A stretch of 64,000 nt of DNA from Hoplostethus atlanticus (taxonomy: Eukaryota > Chordata > Actinopteri > Trachichthyiformes > Trachichthyidae). The notes under the pieces are model-generated. The model saw only the letters and a program-made list of their open reading frames with translations. It was not told where the DNA came from and did not search any database. Of this stretch, positions 31,697 to 64,000 are shown piece by piece. The stretch is taken from the NCBI GenBank assembly GCA_034670405.1, contig JAXDDX010000003.1, positions 7,878,501-7,942,500 on the forward strand, in the 5' to 3' direction. The stretch's first letter is position 1, and each line of letters begins with the position of its first letter. The translations under genes and the position numbers were made by a program.

Positions 31697-32427
31697 CACC
31701 GATCAGCCATAACATTAAAACCACCTGCCTAATATTGTGTAGGTCCCCCTCGTGCCGCCAAAACAGCTCTGACCCGTCGAGGCATGGACTCCACAAGACC
31801 TCTGAAGGTGTCCTGTGGTATCTGGCACCAAGACGTTAGCAGCAGATCCTTTAAGTCCGAGTTGCGAGGTGGGGCCTCCATGGATCGGACTTGTTTTTCC
31901 AGCACATCACACAGATGCTCGATCGGATTAAGATCTGGGGAACACCTTGAACTCTTTGTCATGTTCCTCAAACCATTCCTGAACATTTTTTGCAGTGTGG
32001 CGGGGCGCATTATCCTGCTGAAAGAGGCCACTGCCATCAGGGAATACCGTTGCCATGAAGGGGTGTACTTGGTCTGCAACAATGTTTAGGTAGGTGGTAC
32101 ATGTCAAAGTAACATCCACATGAATGCCCAGCAGAACATTGCCCAGAGCATCACACTGCCTCCGCCAGCTTGCCTTCTTCCCATAGTGCATCCTGGTGCC
32201 ATCTCTTCCCCTGGTACACGACTCACACGCACCCGGCCGTCCACATGATGGAAAAGAAAACGTGATTCATCAGACCAGGCCACCTTCTTCCATTGCATCA
32301 TGGTCCAGTTCTGACACATCAACTTCAAGAACCCATATATCCCACCCCTTGACAGGTGCCATTGTAACGAGATAATCGATGTTATTCATTACACCTGTCA
32401 GTGGTTTAATGTTGTGGCTGATCGGTG
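31697..32427 (-). mobile_element. Tc1/mariner-type transposon, internally deleted
   Basis: TA dinucleotides (31695-31696, 32428-32429) flank inverted repeats that begin CACCGATCAGCCA and stay similar for about 28 bp. The minus strand carries the catalytic half of a Tc1-like transposase: AWSDESRFLFHHVDGRV (first Asp), GLFQQDNAPRHTAKN (second Asp) and SPDLNPIEHL (third acidic residue), ending MPRRVRAVLAARGGPTQY. These pieces lie in at least two frames. The N-terminal DNA-binding half is absent: the 5' leader joins directly to the catalytic part near 32314-32320. It is inactive as a transposase source but has both ends. Confidence 0.92.
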
Positions 32428-33834
32428 TATATATCCGGTATAGAAATAGCACTAAGCACACTAACACTGAGGCTTTACAACAACTTAGAATAGAATGTGT
32501 GTCTGTCAGCACTACAGTTTACTTGACGAATCAATACCGTGGAGAATCAGATAGATGCTAATGCCTAAAGGTGAGGACAGAACATTTCACCCCGAAATAG
32601 AGAGTAGAAAGAGAGACTGCTTTCTGTTTCCTGTAGCTTTGAATCATTGAGAAATGTTTGCTATGTTCTTGTATGTAAAGAAAGACAACAGCACATGAAT
32701 GACTGGCTTGCTTCTAAAATCATAGTCTTCTAGAAAATTCACATCCTTTGTGACAAAGTAGAATTTTTCAGCAGTTGAGTGAATAGTAGCTGGTATCTCT
32801 ATTGTTGACTTTCTATTGTTTGAGCTTTAAAAACCTTCACCTGTTTGGAGCTTTCATTGACGTTTTTGTTTCTCAATAAATCAGATCGATAATTATTATA
32901 AAGCGTTGTGATGTGTTATTGGTTCACCTTACACAATCAAACTATTATTGAACTGTATTTAGAGATGAAATATAGCTGGTGTCAGTTCAAGCGACTCTAC
33001 CCTCTCCACTCTCCTTGCCGCTGTCGACCTTTCTCTACTGTTCGTGTCTCACAGCCAGCGGAGAGTATTTTGGCCACACTCCATCTCTTCCCAAATGAGG
33101 CCAACTGAGGAAGTGAATCAATGTGTTTTTCCCCTAGTCATAGGAAACAGCTGTCATGCTGTCGTCTGGTACAGAGCTGGGCTGACTCAATGCCAGAGCC
33201 AGCTGGGGGAGTCAGCAGGGAGGAAAGCGCTCCCCTCTACATCCACTCAAACCAAACCCATCACCTGAGTGAATTCTATTTGCCATGCCTTCCAGCTACA
33301 TCCACAGCAGAGGGACGTAAACAAAGAGCCTGCTATGTTCCAGCAGGGTATCTTCCTGGCACTATATTTCAGATTATCTGCTGTAATTAAAGAAGCATCA
33401 CTTTTATACGTCCTTGGATAGTTTTAACTTTAATTATATAGGCTGTCACGTGGGTTAGGGTTCGCTTAGCTGGCGTCGAGATATTGAAGATGAATGATAG
33501 CTGACGGGATGAAATTGCGCGAGCCTTGCCGCGTGTCCGTCTAGCCATATAAATGCAAAGAGAGGAAAAGTGGTTGATAATGAAGATGGGGAGGGAATGA
33601 GATGGATCTAAATAAAAGATACATGAAATTAGAAGTTAAGGGGAAGGTCGACACGCAAACCTGAGCTTGTGTTTCATTAGCGGGACCTGACCTTATCTCC
33701 CAGGACCAAACCTTATCTCCCGCAGATACAGCCAGCATGCATAATAGGAATAGGCCCTTTGTGCCAAATGCTGGGGGGCAGAGACCCCCACTCTGAAACC
33801 ACCCCCTCTCTCTTTCAAGCACAGAACGAGCCAT

Positions 33835-33837
33835 ACA

Positions 33838-33870
<33 letters not shown>

Positions 33871-33871
33871 C
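33835..33871. repeat. (CA)n microsatellite
   Basis: CA run interrupted once by TA. Confidence 0.9.
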
Positions 33872-34129
33872 TCCCCTGTCTTCAACACCTCCTTCATGTT
33901 CCCCCCCTTGCTGTTGTTTCCCCAGAACCTCGTCTTTCTATGAGTCAGGAGGACGGAGATTGTAATCAGACTAACATTGTTAAACAGAGAGATGGGAAGG
34001 GCAACAATGAGGTTTGTTAACTAAACAACCGGAGAGCAAGGCGGCGAAATCTCCCCGTCAATCACGGAAATTTATGCATGTCACCAAACCAACATTAATT
34101 GTTTTAATTAAAGACAGAGCGTTGCGCAG

Positions 34130-34132
<3 letters not shown>

Positions 34133-34179
<47 letters not shown>
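34133..34179. repeat. Long (GT)n microsatellite
   Basis: About 23 uninterrupted GT units. Confidence 0.95.
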
Positions 34180-34182
<3 letters not shown>

Positions 34183-35043
34183 AATATGAGACGAGCATCT
34201 GCGCCAAGCGTAGAGAAGAGCTCGGGCTACCTCCTCCATATTCATGGGTTCCCCCGTATGTGACCTTCCACTGTAAACAAAGAATATTAAACACGGTTAC
34301 TCAGAGCCGACTAATGAACACATACACGTATTACTCTCACGGTGTAATGAATCGATAAACCTCCTCTTTCATCAAATATTTATCGAAGTAATATTTCTGA
34401 GCCCTTCAAATTGAAATGACTTGGAATGTAAGTGGAGACCCGCGTGGCCTCAAAACCCCGGGGCCGAAACGCAACGACTCGTCACAGGGAAAATCCTTGA
34501 CTTAATGAAAGGTATGAAGTCCATCAATCCTCCCGGCCAGGTGGACCAAGTCACTACAAAACCAATATTTAGAGGGAACACCGTTTGCTTCATCCTTTCA
34601 TTGTCAGGACTTTGCAGCATCAGTGAAATTCACACTGATTTCAAATCCTGTTTTGACGCCATCACCTCCGAACCCTCCGTCACAATGAACCTACAAGCTC
34701 ATTTATGTTTGGAGGACGCTCAAGAAACCCCCCTATCACTATTGTGTGCAGTGGTGTTACACGTCGTGAATGAATGGCGTAGTAGAGGAGCCCTAGGACA
34801 CCGGCGAAGCGTGACAGCATCGCGAGGTAACCGGCGCTGAGACGGTCATGAACACTGTAGTAATAGAAAAGAAAAGCTCCGCGGGCCCCCTGAGATCCTT
34901 CGTCTATTTCCCAGGGGCTGAGGCAAGCGCCGGACAGGTCTTGCCTGCCTGGACACCTCTGGAAGGCTCTGCAAGCTAGAACACCTTAAAGCAGTGAGGG
35001 ACCACAGCTGTGTCCTACTACCAGGCCCTGGGACCGCCCCCCC

Positions 35044-35118
35044 TGCTCCTCCTCCTCCTCCTCCTCCTCCTCCTCCTCCTCCTCTCCTCCTCCGCCTCCT
35101 TCTCCTCCTCCTTCAGTC
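35044..35118. repeat. (CTC)n pyrimidine tract
   Basis: About 15 CTC units, then imperfect continuation. Almost pure pyrimidine on the plus strand for about 70 bases. Confidence 0.95.
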
Positions 35119-37252
35119 CCAGTGGACATTTGCTGGGAAAGCCTCTACCCTTCAATCTCTAAACCTCTTTATCTCTGCACCTTTCCTTTCCTTGCAAGCA
35201 AATGCCAGCAAACAATTTCCACAGTTCCAGCCCTCATAGCAACAGACAACCAGATATTTGGACAGAGCAGAATTTACCAGAGACACCTCTCGGAAACTGC
35301 AACTCAATTGGCTGTAAATGTCTTCCTGCATACAGCTTAGTGGGCTTTACCCTTCATCAGTAAGCCCTTTTTTATTAACTTGTTAGGCCATTTTGCATAT
35401 AAACAAATAGCAGGCGGACCCCCTTGCCCTGTCTCAGGTGCAGGAGAGATAGCTATTGGGCTCCCTCTATTGGTCTTTATCCATCTATCAACATTGCTCC
35501 TGTCCAGCAGCAGGTTAGGAGGGCTTGCAAAACTATTTGTGTGCATGTTTTCTTTGCAATGTTATATTGAGATGATTTTCCTGGTAATCTCTATGATCTG
35601 GTGTGCATAGTACTAGTAAAGGCAGTGTATTTAAACTAGTGAATCAAATGCTTAAAGATGGCTGCCTTCTGAATTGATGCCATGCTGGTCGATCCAGCCC
35701 ATCTCATGATGCAAACCACAACCCTACGTTTATGAACTGGCAAAAGGTGCGTTGTGACATTGGGCGGCTTGTTCTGAGGCAGATATGACATGATAATCAC
35801 AGCAAACCAAACTGCTGCCACTTTGTTTTAGATGCTTTAGGTACATGGTCCTTTCAAATTTCAGTATAAACTATAGCATCGTTTGGCGCAGGCTGATCTT
35901 TGCCCTGGGCAGGTAATACAAGCAACGCACCGTTTAGTGTTGCTGGATCATCTGAAATGACTGCGGCATCCTGGTTTAATTGGATAATACCGTCCCCAGC
36001 AATTCCCCAGTCATGATTGTTGCCGAGGAGCCAACTTCTGAAACACGTTCCCTTGTGATGAATTATGCATGGGCCCAAGCTGCAAACCCCAACTCATCCA
36101 TCAACATCAGGGGTAAATACATAAACAAAATTATTCTGATCCAGCGAGCCTTAAATTATAGTTTAGCCATTTGGTGTGTAGCCTGTAAAAGAGAGTGCTC
36201 ATTGTTCTCTCTCTCTTATTTAAAAGAGGTTGCATCTGGCCAATTTACCCGAAACTCTATTTTCTGAACACACATAGAAATCAGATTTGGCAGTATGGAA
36301 TAAGGCTTTCATTGGACATCAACGTTTTGGCATTTGCAGGATCTTTAGTTTTTAAGTAGGAAAGCAGTGGCTCAACTAACAAAACACCACATGAAGCTAA
36401 TCTGTGCTGCGTGTCCATCTCAGGGATACTTCAAGAAAGAGAGAGATCTGAACATTTTCCCTAATCCCAGAGTGACTTTGACCATATAGACAAATAAAGC
36501 AAGCACTACTAAAGTGAGGCTAGTTTTTCCTCAAGCTGTCATTCCAAAGGATAGGATTACTTGCATTCCCTGAAATCCCAACAGCAAATTCAAGTGGCTA
36601 CTTTTAGACCTTTTAGACACAAATCTATAGAGACTGGTCTATGGGTAGATTGTATGACAGTGTTTGCAGTGCCACTCTGCATCCAGGACTGACACAATCT
36701 GTTTGTGACGTTTCTGATTTTCTCTCCTGAACGCGCAAGCAGGCGAGACACCTGGATGAACAAACTGATCCGGTGTGAGTACATATTCAGGGCGCCCATG
36801 TTCATGTAGGGCTCGGAGATTAAGCAGCCAGACCAGTAATAGAGTCTCATATCCCAAACAAACTGGATCGGGACTCTGTCAACAGCACGCTGGCTGCTGC
36901 AGGTGCGATTGACATTTCAGATGGGACTCACATTAACCCCTTGTTTCTACCACTAAGCCATCTGCTGAAATATGTATGACTTATGTGGGAGGGTGACTGA
37001 ATGTTTATATAAAATGGAAAAGGCATCAGGGAGAAGTGTTTGTGTACTTCATAAATAATTTGACTTTGAAAGGTCAAGCTGCATCCACCAGTCGGACAAA
37101 CCGTACATGTAGGAGTAAGGGTGTAAATTTGGTTAGAAAATTGGTTGGGGCACATTTTTACCTGTCCGTCTCCACAAACACCATGCACATTGAAACCTAC
37201 ATGCTCACACATACTCTATCTCACACACACATACAGTAGATTTACCTGTGAT

Positions 37253-56756: not shown

Positions 56757-59117
56757 TTTATTGTTCAGTGACTTTTATATACATACATTTTATACACCTA
56801 ATTTACATCAAAAGAAATAAATTGATCTGCTAATGTTCCATAACTCATCTTGCTTCAGTTACATTGGGACACACTAGCAGAAAAACCGAGGGAAAAGAAA
56901 AGGATCATAATTCCAAGTGACACACGAGTGACAAGGCAGTAATATATGAGAATTCAATTCAGTCTACTTTCAGTTAGTGTTTCTATTTTACACACATTTA
57001 AAGAAGTGGTTGGTAAGATTTTAAGCATTCACGTACCTCTAAAATGTTACCAGAGGAATCAATGAATCCTTCTATTTTGCTTCGCTACAAAGCTTTTAAA
57101 ATCTGGTGACAAGGTCAGACAGTAAAAATAGCACCACGCAGATTTATACTTGGAAATCCCTCTGCTGAAATCAGGGTCACAGATGGATGTTATTTCCAAT
57201 TTATGTATTTCAAATATGAATTTATTTACTTGCATTTGTATTTTGCAGGTGCCAAAAGATTCTTGACTCTTGAAAATCAATGCTGTGATAGCAGGCAACT
57301 CAAAAGGATAAATGCCACAGGAAGTCCTGTTGTTTTGTCTATGGCTTTTGTAGATTTTAGTAAGACAGTGGGTAGAATGTTATTTGTTCATAGATGTTTA
57401 GAAATCACTGTTTGAAAGATGTATTTTTAGTGTTTAGAAATACAATCATGTATTTAGTATAGATTAGTATAGTATTTCATTTTTAGTTGGTATTAGGGAA
57501 AACTGTTATTTTTCTAATCTGTGTGTAAAGGTACGTAGCAATGTCTGAGACAATACGGCCACACGCCCTGCGGAGGTGAAGATCACCTAAAATCTTACAA
57601 ACGGCATCTTCAATATATTAGAGATGACTATCACTATTGTGCTAAATATTAATTACAAACATACACATAGAAAACATAAAATACAACTGTGAAAAGTAAA
57701 TCTAATGAGTTAATGCGGAAGTCGTGTACATTTTAGTGTATGCAAACAATACAAAATACATTACTTGGAGTGGCCAGGGTCCAAACGGATCAAAACGTGG
57801 CAAGGAGAAAAACTAAAAATGTAAACCGTTGGAGAAACCCTCTCTAGGATTCCCCGATCCATAAACTGTAAATAAACGGAGACACTGACCTGCTCTCATC
57901 TTTTGGGTCTAATGGGACTGACAGGGGAGTCTAACCTACTACTGCTAGCTTATGATAAAACACGGATACTAACTAGAGTGACATGCCTAAGAAACACGAA
58001 ACAACACATCAACTCCAGCCTCCCCTTACCATACAGAAGCACAGACAGAATCTACTAGGATACATTAATGGGTCTTAGCACTAAACTGCTGCAAGCAGCA
58101 ATAACTCTAAGCTATTAAAACATGCAGCTCGTGGTTCTACAGTACTATTCAGTAGTGGTGGTGCTAAATGGCTGCGTGTAACTCACTCTGATGGAAAATC
58201 CAGAGTTTGCATTTATTATTACTCTTATTTCCATCACCAGATGATGATTTTCACTATGGCTCTGTTGTTCCGGCAGTCTCGCACCACACCTAGCCAGGCC
58301 CTCTGATAATCACGTAGCAGCCCAACTGCCATCTTATCACCACACCATACGGGAACATCTGATTATTGCACACTAGCACTGAACTTGCAAATGTTCATGC
58401 AGAATGTATGAGAAACACCACTACACTCAAATCAGTGGTTGCTCACTACTTGACAGATGATCGTACGATTCTTTGGAAGACTAAAATACATTTTATTTGG
58501 GGTGGGACATACAACTACGTGGCACACTACTTAGGGCTAGTATTACAACCTAAGTTGGGCAGACTGAGAGGTGTAATGATGTTTTAGAAAATTAATATTA
58601 GGATACTTGACGCTCTGCTCGACAACAATTTTATTACCTTCTGTAGACAGGAGATAAGGAGAAGTGTTTGAGTACTATAATTGCACTGAGGAGGAAAAGG
58701 GGTAGAGCCCATTCCTGCGAGGGAATCTAGCAACCTCTTCGTCAAGCAAATTCTCACTTTTGCAATAGAATATACTACATCCGTATCCAACATTCCTAGC
58801 ACGGTTTCTGTTAAAACACAAAAATAGTTAAGACTCACAGAAAGAATCCCAGCAAAGTAACAAGATAGGCGCCAGGGCTCCTTCATTTGGAGTTGAGAGC
58901 TAAAGATAATTACAGATATAAAAAGCAAAAGATAAAAGAAAATAAAAAACGATCACTGCAATCACACATCTTCCCCAGCAACAACTCCACGCACTAGACT
59001 TGTGACTAGACAAGTGAAAGGACTGTAAGGCGAAACAGTGAGCGGGAGGGTGAAAGGGAGATGGAGAGACTTGGGATGGGGCTGTTGTGATGGGGCTGGG
59101 GCTTATTCCTCTCCTCC
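56757..59117 (-). other. apbb1: Probable 3'UTR of apbb1
   Basis: After the stop codon there is no recognisable gene or dispersed repeat for about 2.4 kb. Minus-strand AATAAA signals occur near 58630, 58494, 58213 and 56757. The last lies at the edge of this stretch, just after an AT-rich end, and is the most distal candidate cleavage site. The true end cannot be set without transcripts. Confidence 0.4.
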
Positions 59118-59273
59118 TCAAGGGGACTGAGAGCCTGACCTGTAGCTCTTGAAGCTGCCCAGTAGACTCTGGACCCCCTTCCTGACACGTCGCGCCACAG
59201 AGTCAGCAGGAGGAGTGGGCAGGCAGGAGCCTAAGCTAGGGGGACGTGCATCCAAACATTTCTGGTAGCGAAG
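59118..59273 (-). CDS. apbb1: apbb1 last coding exon
   Basis: This 156-nt exon reads [18 protein letters not shown], then [18 protein letters not shown] and [15 protein letters not shown], followed by TGA at 59118-59120. The acceptor is [17 protein letters not shown] and the SVARRV...GVQSL.GS.K tail fit APBB1; human APBB2 ends quite differently. Confidence 0.95.
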   Translation of the reverse strand, partial: LRYQKCLDARPPSLGSCLPTPPADSVARRVRKGVQSLLGSFKSYRSGSQSP

Positions 59274-62200
59274 CTGTGGACAGAAAACACATAAACACAA
59301 TATATACATGAACAGAACATAAATACAGGTCTATTAGAAACACTAGATAAGGGCCCCAATACTGGATTCTGCATGTGAAACTACAATTGTGCCAAATGTC
59401 CCTTTTTCAGACACACTAAAGCGATATATTCTCTATTTCTATGTCTTTCATCCCATGCATTTGTTCAGGTCTAGACTCACCATGCAGGCAGCCTGTACAG
59501 CTTCACTCAAACTGGCAGGCATTGGGTTCACACCAAAACATATGAATGATGAAATCCATGGGGCCCTCGGCCATGATGAAGGCAAACGCATGGACATCCT
59601 TCCCCACACCCATGAAAGACAGGAAACGCACCCTGCACTCTGACAGCACCTCCTCGGTCTGGGGTGAGAAATACAAGTGATACAATAAGTAGGCGACGCA
59701 ATGTTAAAGGATTTAAACATTTCTGTGTGATATGGCTTTCAGGACACTGTCCATGTGGTGGGTGATATGGATAAAAAAAACATTATTTTCAGACATTTTC
59801 ATGATTCAAAATATGCATCACAATAATTTGCTAAGTTACAAGTTACTGAAATGTACATCCCAACTGGCAACAGTACAATACTCCATTTGCAGCCTGTAAA
59901 TAAAGTATAGGCCAACAAGAAACAATGTTTATTAGCCTGGTCATGTCATGGTCAGTCCTTTACCTGTCTTGACAGTATGGTGAGGGTGGCTGGGGCGACA
60001 TTAACAGAGACAGGAGTCCAGTCATGTTTATCTTTGCCATTCATTGCCATCTCCAGCGCGTCACTGACAATGTCCATACCTGGGAAATGCAAAGGAGTGA
60101 AATACACACACACACTTAGGAGTTGCAAATAACAATCATCATCACCATCATCATTATTATGATCAGGACATGCAATGTATTAGTGATATTTCACAATACA
60201 AGAAGCAAAATTGTTCACTTAAATTGACATCCCTGAAGGCCTTTTCTTATCCATGCAACCCTTACCTACTGGCTTGGCCACATGCTTATTACCAAGGTAA
60301 TACACAAGGAAGCGTTGGAAGAGTTCATTTTTCGGAGCAGGAAACTCTGGTAAATGAGAAAGAAGGATTCAGTGCTGTATTTTCACACTTTGAATATTAC
60401 AAAACATGAAAAACACACGTGACCCTAAAAGCATCGCTGTACCTTCAACAGGGATGCCCATAGGATTACAGGGGTCGGAGTTCAGCCTGCTCACCCCTGG
60501 CTTGGTTGCCTTTCTCTCTGTCATTATCTGAAATTCGATTTAGTGGAAAAAAATAAGGAAAAGTAAGTAAGGTGTTCATGGCTGATAATGAATCACGATC
60601 ACACAAAACTAAAAATGAACATTGGGGGCAGGCTGACCTTTGAGCACATCTCATGCAGGCTGGTGGCAATGTTCTTGGCAGGTGAGTCACAGCGGAAAAC
60701 ATGACACTTCAGAACTTGGGTCAGGTTGTCTCGAGCCACATAGGCAAAATCTCTGTAGGTGAAATCAGTACTTCATATAGTACAATAACATGAATATCAG
60801 CAGAAATTTGGTACAAAAAAATATGCTTACAGGCACATCACAATACACATACTAGTACAGGTACCACAAGACTAAACATTTCACAAAACTTCATAATAAT
60901 CATTGAAGTATACCTTTCCCTGTACATGGCAGAAAATGCAGCATGGAAGAAAAAGCACCGTTGTTAGAATACAGTGGCACAAAAATCAGGAGAAGTCAAG
61001 ACTGTATTTTTGAGGAAGGCCTGTAATACTTCAAACAATCCAGCAGAGGGCGGCGGTCTACTAGGGATGGAGTATGGTGGGAGTGCCAAGAGGAATGCCA
61101 AGCCTCTGCTAGTCATAACACAAACTAGTCATAATGACTACCACAGCTGGCGGTACATTACTTTTAATGGGAAAATAACAGCTGGGTGCAAATTCAACAG
61201 GATAATGGTACACTATTCAGAGGTGTGGGACAAAGACCGTCTGTCCTGAGACAAATTAGGAACAAATTCACAAAAATTCACAATCAAGCAGCTTTTAATA
61301 GAACAGTCCTAAGCGAATGCTGTTTTCATTTAGTCATACCGAAGAAATTAGGAAGACTTTTTGTTTTCTGGCAAACACATTTTTATGCACCTTTTCACTT
61401 TGAGTTTTTGTTAAAACTCATTAAAATGTGCTGCAACAGAGCACCCTATAGAGAAAACTACTAAACATTGAAATGTAAATTAAAACCCCACAAAGGTCTT
61501 TTATTTTCATGTGTGGTTAATGATATGTGGTCATGCTTCTAGACCACAAAACTGAAAAGCACCCTTACATGCAGCATACATAAATGCAACTAGCCCAAAC
61601 TGCTTCCTTAAATACAAAGCAAAGCATTTATGAAGCATGGTTTGTTTAAAGCAAATTAAAACACAAGCCTTGTCCTGTGGACACTGACCTGCCGTTGTCT
61701 CTGCCAACACCCCACACACGGATGCTGGCGATCGGCTGAGCATGCAGCAGAGTCTGGCCCAGTGGGTCAATCAAGTTCATGGTGTCATTGTCCAGGACCA
61801 TCAGCATGTCCTTACCCTGTCAACAGACACATACTCTTATAAAGAGCAGTCTCGCTTAACATCTTGCATGACATTTTGGGACTAGAAAAAGGAAAAGAGC
61901 AGTAATACTCGCTACTATTTGGTTGTATACAAACAAACAAAATTGTTACTATTTTAGGCAATTCTCTATCATTCTAGTGTGATGGTAGCAGAGGAAACAT
62001 CTCAGAACAGCTTAAAACTAGTTGAACAGATAATTGCATCATCCTGATGCCACTTGAAATAATGGTTTGATATTTGTGTAATTGCTGACTTAACGGAGAA
62101 CCTGTCAGTCAACTTCCTGTGTGGTGCAGGGTAACCCTCACCTCTCCCCAGATACCAGCAGTGTCGTGAAGGTTGTGTTTGTGATAAGAGAGCTGTCTGA

Positions 62201-63922
62201 TGCAGTTGTTGACAGCAACACTGCTCTTCCCTGGTGCCATGTCCTCCTCAGACATCTCCACCCAGCCCAGGGAGCGCACTGCAAAACACTGGAATAGCAC
62301 AAATAGGCCACGCATTAACATAAGCCATCACTGAACCGCAGGCAGAAAACAATCCAGTTAGGAAAGGGTGGAGAATTTGAGGTGTGTTGACAGAAAGCAG
62401 AGCCAGTGGACTACCCACTTCCTGTTGGAGTTGCCTGTTTCAGTGAATGAATCAGTGTTGGTGAATGTACCCAGGTTTTCCTTTAGATTAATTTAGCTGC
62501 GTTGGCTAAGACGTAAATTGAAAATTGTTTGCCTAGCTAGAAAAATGTAAATACAATGAAGATTCATCATGTGGCCTCATTGCTCAGTCTGACCAAAATA
62601 TTTAACAGTTGAATTTGCAAGTATCCATTCCATAATATTCAAACACAAATAACATTTTTGAAGTGCAAACCAGACTGGAATGATGATCCTGAAATGGGTC
62701 CAAGGACCAAAATTAATCCCACATCTTCATAAACCTCAATAGGAAACAGTGATTTACCTTAGTTTCTAAGTCTGTGCAGAGTGGAGCAAGCTTTTCCTCC
62801 TCCTCAGACTGGGCGCAATTGTAGCTACAATGACAAAGAGAGCGGTAGGATTAACATCTCAAAATATAAAAATGGTCCTGCATGTAAGTAGCTTCACCAC
62901 CACCTACTTCAAGTTGATGGATGCATAGCGTAGAGTTGCCCCTTCAAACTCCTTCAGGCTTTGGTCAGAGGCCACCTCTCCCTCCTGCAAAGAACACACA
63001 CAAGCAGAAAACCAAATAGTGATGAGTTAGAAATTGGAATTTCAACTTGTGTTTCAACTAGAAGGTATTAACTAACTGACTTGTCCAAGAGTTCTCAAAG
63101 GTCTTTCAGCCTATGACCAGACACTTCACCACTTACCCAGTGGGCCTGGCTAATGGAAAAAATATTACTCTTGTCAAGTGGGGGACCCACCACACATGTG
63201 CCTGTGACCCATTTTGGGGTATTGACCCACAAATTCAGAAGCACTGGACCAGTCTAATAATGGTGTGATGCCAAAACAGACATAATGATGATAGCGGTGT
63301 GACATTAACTCACCATACACAGTGATGAGCAAGAAGATTAAGGGCTTGAAATAATTTAACCATAGAATGGCACAAATTAGTAGCCTGCAATTATTTGCAA
63401 AACTTATATTCCACAACTGTTGAGAAAGAGACGCTCACTAGGTAGTTCTCAGAGAACCCCAACACTACCCCAGAACCCAGTAGGTTCTGAAATCAAAATA
63501 TTTGGTAACCTTTTGAAGACAGAGAAACCTAAAATTAGGGAGAAACATTAATTGGCAGGTAAATGAGTTCAATTAGTTAAAGTCACTACTATCTTATTGT
63601 CTCTGCTTGACATAATAAATATCCTTTGTTGAGTCAGATTATTTCTCTTTTGATTCCAGTGTAGCCATTTTGCATTATTCTTCTTCTTCAGCAAAGGTCT
63701 TGGGCAGGAATTGAATGAATATGATCAATATATAATCCAAAACTAAAAAAGTGATTATTATGATTATTTATGATTGATTATTAATACAAAAATATGAACA
63801 AATCTATCTATTTTTTACTTTTTATATCAAGTAGGCCAATTTGTATTCTTGCTGAGACTTACCTTCCACAGCTCCCCATCACCAGCTCCTTCATCTGGGT
63901 TGGAAAGGTGAGTCCAAGAGTC
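59118..63922 (-). CDS. apbb1: Amyloid-beta precursor protein-binding family B member 1 (Fe65), 5'-partial, 11 exons plus microexon
   Basis: Fe65 is a neuronal adaptor. Its WW domain and two PTB domains link the cytoplasmic tail of APP (via PTB2) to other partners and to nuclear signalling. The window holds the C-terminal ~402 codons; the WW domain and N-terminus lie beyond base 64000. In order the exons give the acidic linker, PTB1 ([12 protein letters not shown] to CSKIMTERK) and PTB2 ([10 protein letters not shown] to VQAACMLRYQKC), then the tail [16 protein letters not shown]. Every junction has GT/AG ends and the phases agree, except that exon 59481-59658 carries one base too many. I judge apbb1 over apbb2 from [37 protein letters not shown] and the SCLP..PPA.SVARRV tail, all recalled from mammalian APBB1; FMGVGKDVH is more APBB2-like. 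Known family function; orthology is inferred from memory without alignment. Confidence 0.9.
59481..59658 (-). CDS. apbb1: apbb1 exon: PTB2 C-terminal half, with one surplus base
   Basis: The exon starts [19 protein letters not shown] and runs through FAFIMAEGP to HMFWCEPNA. Both flanking junctions are phase 0, so the length should be divisible by three, but it is 178 nt. After CEPNA the reading frame must shift by one base (GCC T GCC, near 59514-59520) to resume [11 protein letters not shown]. Read straight through, it hits a stop four codons later (CQFE). Conserved coding on both sides suggests a sequence error or a recent mutation rather than an old pseudogene. Confidence 0.9.
59964..60079 (-). 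CDS. apbb1: apbb1 exon: PTB2 middle
   Basis: This 116-nt exon encodes [18 protein letters not shown], then [18 protein letters not shown] and [12 protein letters not shown] is the APBB1-type version of this strand. The donor is CAG|gtaaag and the end is phase 0. Confidence 0.95.
60266..60346 (-). CDS. apbb1: apbb1 exon: start of PTB2
   Basis: This 81-nt exon reads [19 protein letters not shown] then NKHVAKPV, phase 1 to 1. It opens the second PTB domain, which binds the NPxY-type motif of the APP tail in characterised family members. Confidence 0.95.
   Translation of the reverse strand, partial: SFLLRKMNSSNASLCITLVISMWPSQ
60443..60527 (-). CDS. apbb1: apbb1 exon: PTB1-PTB2 linker
   Basis: This 85-nt exon encodes [18 protein letters not shown] then [10 protein letters not shown] and ends in phase 1. 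IM.ER is conserved; the rest of the linker has drifted from mammalian sequence but keeps its length. Confidence 0.9.
60638..60752 (-). CDS. apbb1: apbb1 exon: C-terminal part of PTB1
   Basis: This 115-nt exon supplies the last base of Arg, then [19 protein letters not shown] and [19 protein letters not shown]. The sequence is diagnostic for the Fe65 family PTB1. It ends in phase 0 at AAG|gtcagc. Confidence 0.95.
60914..60919 (-). CDS. apbb1: apbb1 6-nt microexon (Arg-Glu), alternatively spliced
   Basis: The minus strand reads TGTACAG|GGAAAG|GTATAC. Inserting GGAAAG between the flanking exons changes ...NGRDFAYV... to ...NGRERDFAYV... without altering phase, as in the known neuron-specific Fe65 isoform. 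The ~40 nt upstream of the acceptor contain several TGC motifs, the kind of signal used by the neuronal splicing factor SRRM4. Placement is seen in the sequence; use in this species is inferred. Confidence 0.8.
61689..61816 (-). CDS. apbb1: apbb1 exon: PTB1 core
   Basis: This exon is 128 nt and starts in phase 0 with [15 protein letters not shown]. It passes through [16 protein letters not shown] and ends RDNG plus two bases of an Arg codon. The phase-2 end is exactly where the Fe65 6-nt microexon is inserted in neurons. Confidence 0.95.
62142..62288 (-). CDS. apbb1: apbb1 exon: start of PTB1
   Basis: This exon is 147 nt, or 49 codons, phase 0 to 0. It begins [16 protein letters not shown] and continues with [16 protein letters not shown] to GIWGE. 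It is the N-terminal half of the first phosphotyrosine-binding domain and is very close to mammalian Fe65. Confidence 0.95.
62758..62824 (-). CDS. apbb1: apbb1 exon: acidic stretch leading into PTB1
   Basis: This 67-nt exon completes an Asn codon and reads [14 protein letters not shown] then LCTDLETK. I chose the acceptor TTGTAG at 62825-62826 because it has the better pyrimidine tract and restores phase with the previous exon. A second AG 16 nt downstream (before TCTGAGG) would break phase. The acidic run corresponds to the DDDD-containing segment of mammalian Fe65. Confidence 0.8.
62908..62984 (-). CDS. apbb1: apbb1 exon: linker before PTB1
   Basis: This 77-nt exon encodes [15 protein letters not shown] then [10 protein letters not shown], and ends in phase 2 (AA|gtaggt). 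The phrase [11 protein letters not shown] matches the segment just before PTB1 in mammalian Fe65. The acceptor is TTTGCAG. Confidence 0.85.
63863..63922 (-). CDS. apbb1: apbb1 exon: linker after WW domain
   Basis: This 60-nt exon is read in phase 0 as [12 protein letters not shown] followed by AGDGELWK. The acceptor is TTTCTAG and the donor is GTAAGT. The acidic sequence with ...DGE.WK resembles the WW-PTB1 linker of Fe65. It is the most 5' exon in the window; bases 63923-64000 are intron. Confidence 0.75.
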
Positions 63923-64000
63923 CTAGAAAATTGAACAGAAGATATTATTGGCTACAGACACAAATGCCAGCATTGCTATCCGAGCAAAATGTGTGTTAGG

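Follow-up and report, generated by a model that had tools for sequence, protein, structure and literature searches.

In the genes APBB1, APBB2 and APBB3, an exon of 6 nt occurs at a paralogous place, and its alternative splicing is documented in mammals, in chicken and in two fish species (Li et al., 2015, PMC4317164). The fishes are named in a figure legend of that study as Oreochromis niloticus and Metriaclima zebra, the encoded residues are placed in a β-turn loop on the structure of APBB2, and the exon is described as over 400 My old (Li et al., 2015, PMC4317164). In human Fe65 (APBB1), mini-exon 9 encodes the insert, residues E462 and R463, and non-neuronal cells mostly have forms that lack these residues (review, PMC8304848). 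According to a second review, the insert raises the binding of Fe65 to Kat5/Tip60 and, to a lesser degree, to APP (PMC8911335). A zebrafish study of 2025 includes apbb1 among 21 conserved microexons, for whose choice neural inclusion and regulation by srrm3/4 were among the criteria (PMC12626424). Three of the deletions reported there (spock3, pus7, dock7) were dropped, and in the other 18 neither body size nor gross morphology is described as affected; deletion of the apbb1 microexon altered the expression of the host gene and its paralogues (PMC12626424). The main text of the companion zebrafish paper makes no mention of apbb (PMC12626420). In mouse Neuro2A cells, retinoic-acid-induced neurite growth is reported to be unaffected by deletion of the Apbb1 microexon (PMC5247714). 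Literature retrieved under apbb1, zebrafish and Fe65 names the fish microexon in no title or abstract opening; the relevant work is found under APBB1 together with microexon.

The regulation of such exons has been described in two other settings. In Drosophila, exons that depend on eMIC are reported to be preceded by a long AG exclusion zone, to have UGC a short way before the acceptor and to use a branch point of the type CUAAY, and UCUC motifs in the polypyrimidine tract represent an enrichment among these exons, not a requirement (PMC8797185). In the SRRM4-dependent protrudin microexon of mouse, minigenes indicate that the TGC nearest to the acceptor is needed (PMC5247714).

The window analysed here, 64,000 nt of genomic DNA from Hoplostethus atlanticus, harbors the 3′ part of apbb1 on the minus strand (59114..64000), comprising ten exons (b to k), a microexon and the donor end of one more exon, and encoding the domains PTB1 and PTB2; the gene's 5′ part is beyond the window. 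Exon borders were set by hand from reading frame and GT/AG, and 59114 is a cut just beyond the stop codon (at about 59118), not an exon border. Pfam recognizes a PTB/PID domain (E 1e-39). The PTB1 domain scores 250 bits against the PTB1 of human Fe65 (3d8d, APBB1), the sole PTB1 chain among the matches listed; the APBB2 chains among these matches cover PTB2, not PTB1. The paralogues are thus told apart by PTB2, which up to a break in its frame scores 164.2 bits against APBB1 vs 137.8 against the best APBB2 chain and 62.2 against APBB3. Because the highest PTB2 score is that to APBB1, the name apbb1, under which the earlier note had read the gene, stands.

Outside this gene, two overlapping open reading frames lie on the minus strand at 31729-32266, in which Pfam finds 0 families at E 0.001. 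Their translations contain what we take to be pieces of a Tc1-type transposase, e.g., DLNPIEHLCDVLE. Simple repeats occupy 34990-35340 and 33541-34358 and are read in open reading frames as serine/proline and CVCVC runs, which imply no gene. Pfam searches with 6 of the 40 open reading frames of the window (at least 100 aa) gave 0 families at E 0.001.

The PTB1 domain of apbb1 is split by an intron of 936 nt, which contains the sequence GGAAAG on the minus strand (60914..60919), preceded by an acceptor AG at 60920..60921 (CAG/G) and followed by a donor GT at 60912..60913 (AAG/GTATAC). The upstream PTB1 exon (61689..61816, minus strand, 128 nt) starts in phase 0 and leaves 2 nt, which form part of an Arg codon; the downstream exon (60638..60752, minus strand, 115 nt) is delimited by frame and splice borders. 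Direct joining of 61689 to 60752 encodes GRDFAYVAR, and the six bases add two residues (Arg-Glu/Glu-Arg) that fall between GR and DFAYVA of PTB1. The frame is open across both flanking exons with or without GGAAAG, and the 11-residue segment that includes the insert is identical in the crystallised human Fe65 PTB1 (3d8d). The earlier note had proposed a six-base apbb1 exon at this site, flanked by AG and GT, in phase, bridging the junction of 61689 with 60752 and inserting Arg-Glu where the Fe65 mini-exon does. Site, flanks and phase are confirmed, the insert is the human one, and both junction coordinates agree with the hand-set borders. Sequence, phase and insert can thus be read directly from this DNA; together with the exons known from other species, they suggest that Hoplostethus atlanticus splices the microexon.

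A chance match, in which GGAAAG would be plain intron sequence and would always be spliced out, has to be weighed against this identity. The motif itself is not rare: of the sites in the window at which AG and GT are spaced by six bases (AG-N6-GT), 4 of 232 on the minus strand and 3 of 223 on the plus strand would code for Arg-Glu. Given these seven sites, the motif by itself is weak evidence, and position matters; the weight comes from the in-phase place within one particular intron. There, 4 AG-N6-GT sites are found vs a mean of 3.7 in simulated introns, and just one of the four encodes the known insert. In 20,000 first-order Markov simulations of an intron of the same length as that in PTB1, an Arg-Glu-coding AG-N6-GT appeared in 30, and one with at least five TGC in the preceding 60 nt in none (0/20,000). 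The nine other listed apbb1 introns together have 10 AG-N6-GT sites, 0 of which code for the insert, and in the whole window AG-GGAAAG-GT is found a single time on the minus strand and never on the plus strand. Against coincidence also speaks the acceptor, exceptional among the gene's 11 in the window in both TGC count and AG-free length, as does a 6-nt exon known independently at the same place in other fish. That the match is accidental is therefore extremely unlikely.

The TGC motifs that the earlier note saw before the acceptor are indeed there, at positions -60, -38, -24, -21 and -12 (60929..60979, minus strand), and form a candidate SRRM3/4 enhancer by the role given to this motif in other exons (PMC5247714, PMC8797185). 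In the last 40 nt, the microexon acceptor has 4 TGC vs 0-2 at the gene's 10 other acceptors in the window; in the last 60 nt it has 5 vs 0-4. Such density is not unique within the PTB1 intron, where five TGC per 60 nt are reached at 15 of 877 start positions (e.g., 61630-61626). Upstream of the acceptor, 80 nt are free of AG, the longest such stretch among the 11 acceptors (15-62 nt at the other 10). The branch-point pattern CUAAY is here widened to CTRAY, and a CTAAC at -48 (60963..60967, minus strand) is a candidate branch-point sequence by pattern match only. It is not special to the microexon, because CTAAC also precedes two constitutive exons, b (at -46) and d (at -73). Pyrimidines at -20 to -5 are ordinary (11/16 vs 8 to 14 at the other acceptors). 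No TCTC lies in the tract after CTAAC; the sole TCTC, at -74, is upstream of it. On the donor side, 6 of 9 positions agree with the consensus, a weak score that exons b and g share, and the RBFOX site TGCATG is absent from the 161 nt between the microexon and the next exon. In most, but not all, of the features tested, the microexon acceptor resembles those that depend on SRRM3/4.

Taken together, these observations argue that GGAAAG is the orthologue, in a fish, of the neuron-specific Fe65 (APBB1) microexon of 6 nt that is already known, with neural inclusion driven by Srrm3/4, a reading to which we assign a probability of roughly 0.9. In most cells, 61689 would be joined to 60752, giving a PTB1 without the insert. 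In neurons, Srrm3 and Srrm4 would bind the upstream TGC motifs and aid the spliceosome on this very short exon, and the two charged residues added to PTB1 may then strengthen the binding of partners such as Kat5/Tip60. The layout of the acceptor is observed in this DNA; neural inclusion, the regulator and the effect on binding are carried over from other species and are probable by that analogy. The exon might instead be real but constitutive, or non-neural, in Hoplostethus atlanticus, the isoform switch having been lost or changed. The weak donor and the tract devoid of TCTC after CTAAC would fit such a change, but the richness in TGC and the long AG-free stretch do not, and the zebrafish set that contains apbb1 was selected partly by neural inclusion and regulation by srrm3/4 (PMC12626424). 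We consider loss or change of the switch very unlikely.

Further downstream in the gene, the PTB2 exon at 59658-59481 (minus strand) measures 178 nt, one above a multiple of three, and its frame is broken. The break lies near 59522-59509, between CEPNA and SLSEAV; frame 0 ends after CEPNACQFE, and past the break PTB2 and the C-terminus are read in a different frame, at a place where human PTB2 is uninterrupted. The preferred reading is that the one-base excess represents a candidate assembly error. The loss of frame within a domain that is intact in human could also mark apbb1 as a pseudogene, a decaying copy in which the microexon would be a relic. However, exons b to i are open in one frame, the rest of j and all of k are open in another up to the stop, and a single extra base in an otherwise open gene suits a candidate assembly error better; decay thus appears most improbable. 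There is an equally slim chance that the frameshift is real and that the regulated PTB1 switch (the Tip60 arm) persists in an Fe65 without a whole PTB2 (the APP arm). If true, this would part the Tip60-arm and APP-arm functions in nature.

The favored interpretation, an orthologue of the Fe65 microexon, looks like a correct but ordinary finding, a copy of the brain-specific exon already described. The identity given in the earlier note is upheld by the PTB2 score, the match of the insert and the acceptor; its suggestion that survival in fish would show the isoform switch to be ancient is not news, as this was published in 2015 (PMC4317164) and the exon has been deleted in zebrafish (PMC12626424). 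The question raised has therefore been answered in print. The locus nevertheless shows cleanly how phase, insert and acceptor allow a six-base exon to be recognized in genomic DNA. Its practical use is in annotation: the microexon belongs in the gene model of the Hoplostethus genome.

Among the known systems, exon L of protrudin (Zfyve27) is a neural microexon that likewise has TGC motifs ahead of its acceptor, but it belongs to another gene and is 21 nt long, so that it serves as a model for regulation only (PMC5247714). The zebrafish apbb1 microexon (VastDB EX0013846) is likewise from a fish apbb1 and is described as part of a conserved srrm3/4 programme, a likeness drawn from its description, not base by base (PMC12626424). 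The microexons of APBB1, APBB2 and APBB3 agree with the present one in their length of 6 nt, in their paralogous position and in adding two residues to PTB1, in fish as well; those fish cases rest on cDNA, whereas the Hoplostethus exon was read from genomic sequence alone (Li et al., 2015, PMC4317164). Mini-exon 9 of human APBB1/Fe65 (E462-R463) is the same as the exon described here in gene, in place within PTB1 and in both residues, and, compared at the protein level, the two have no substantial difference.
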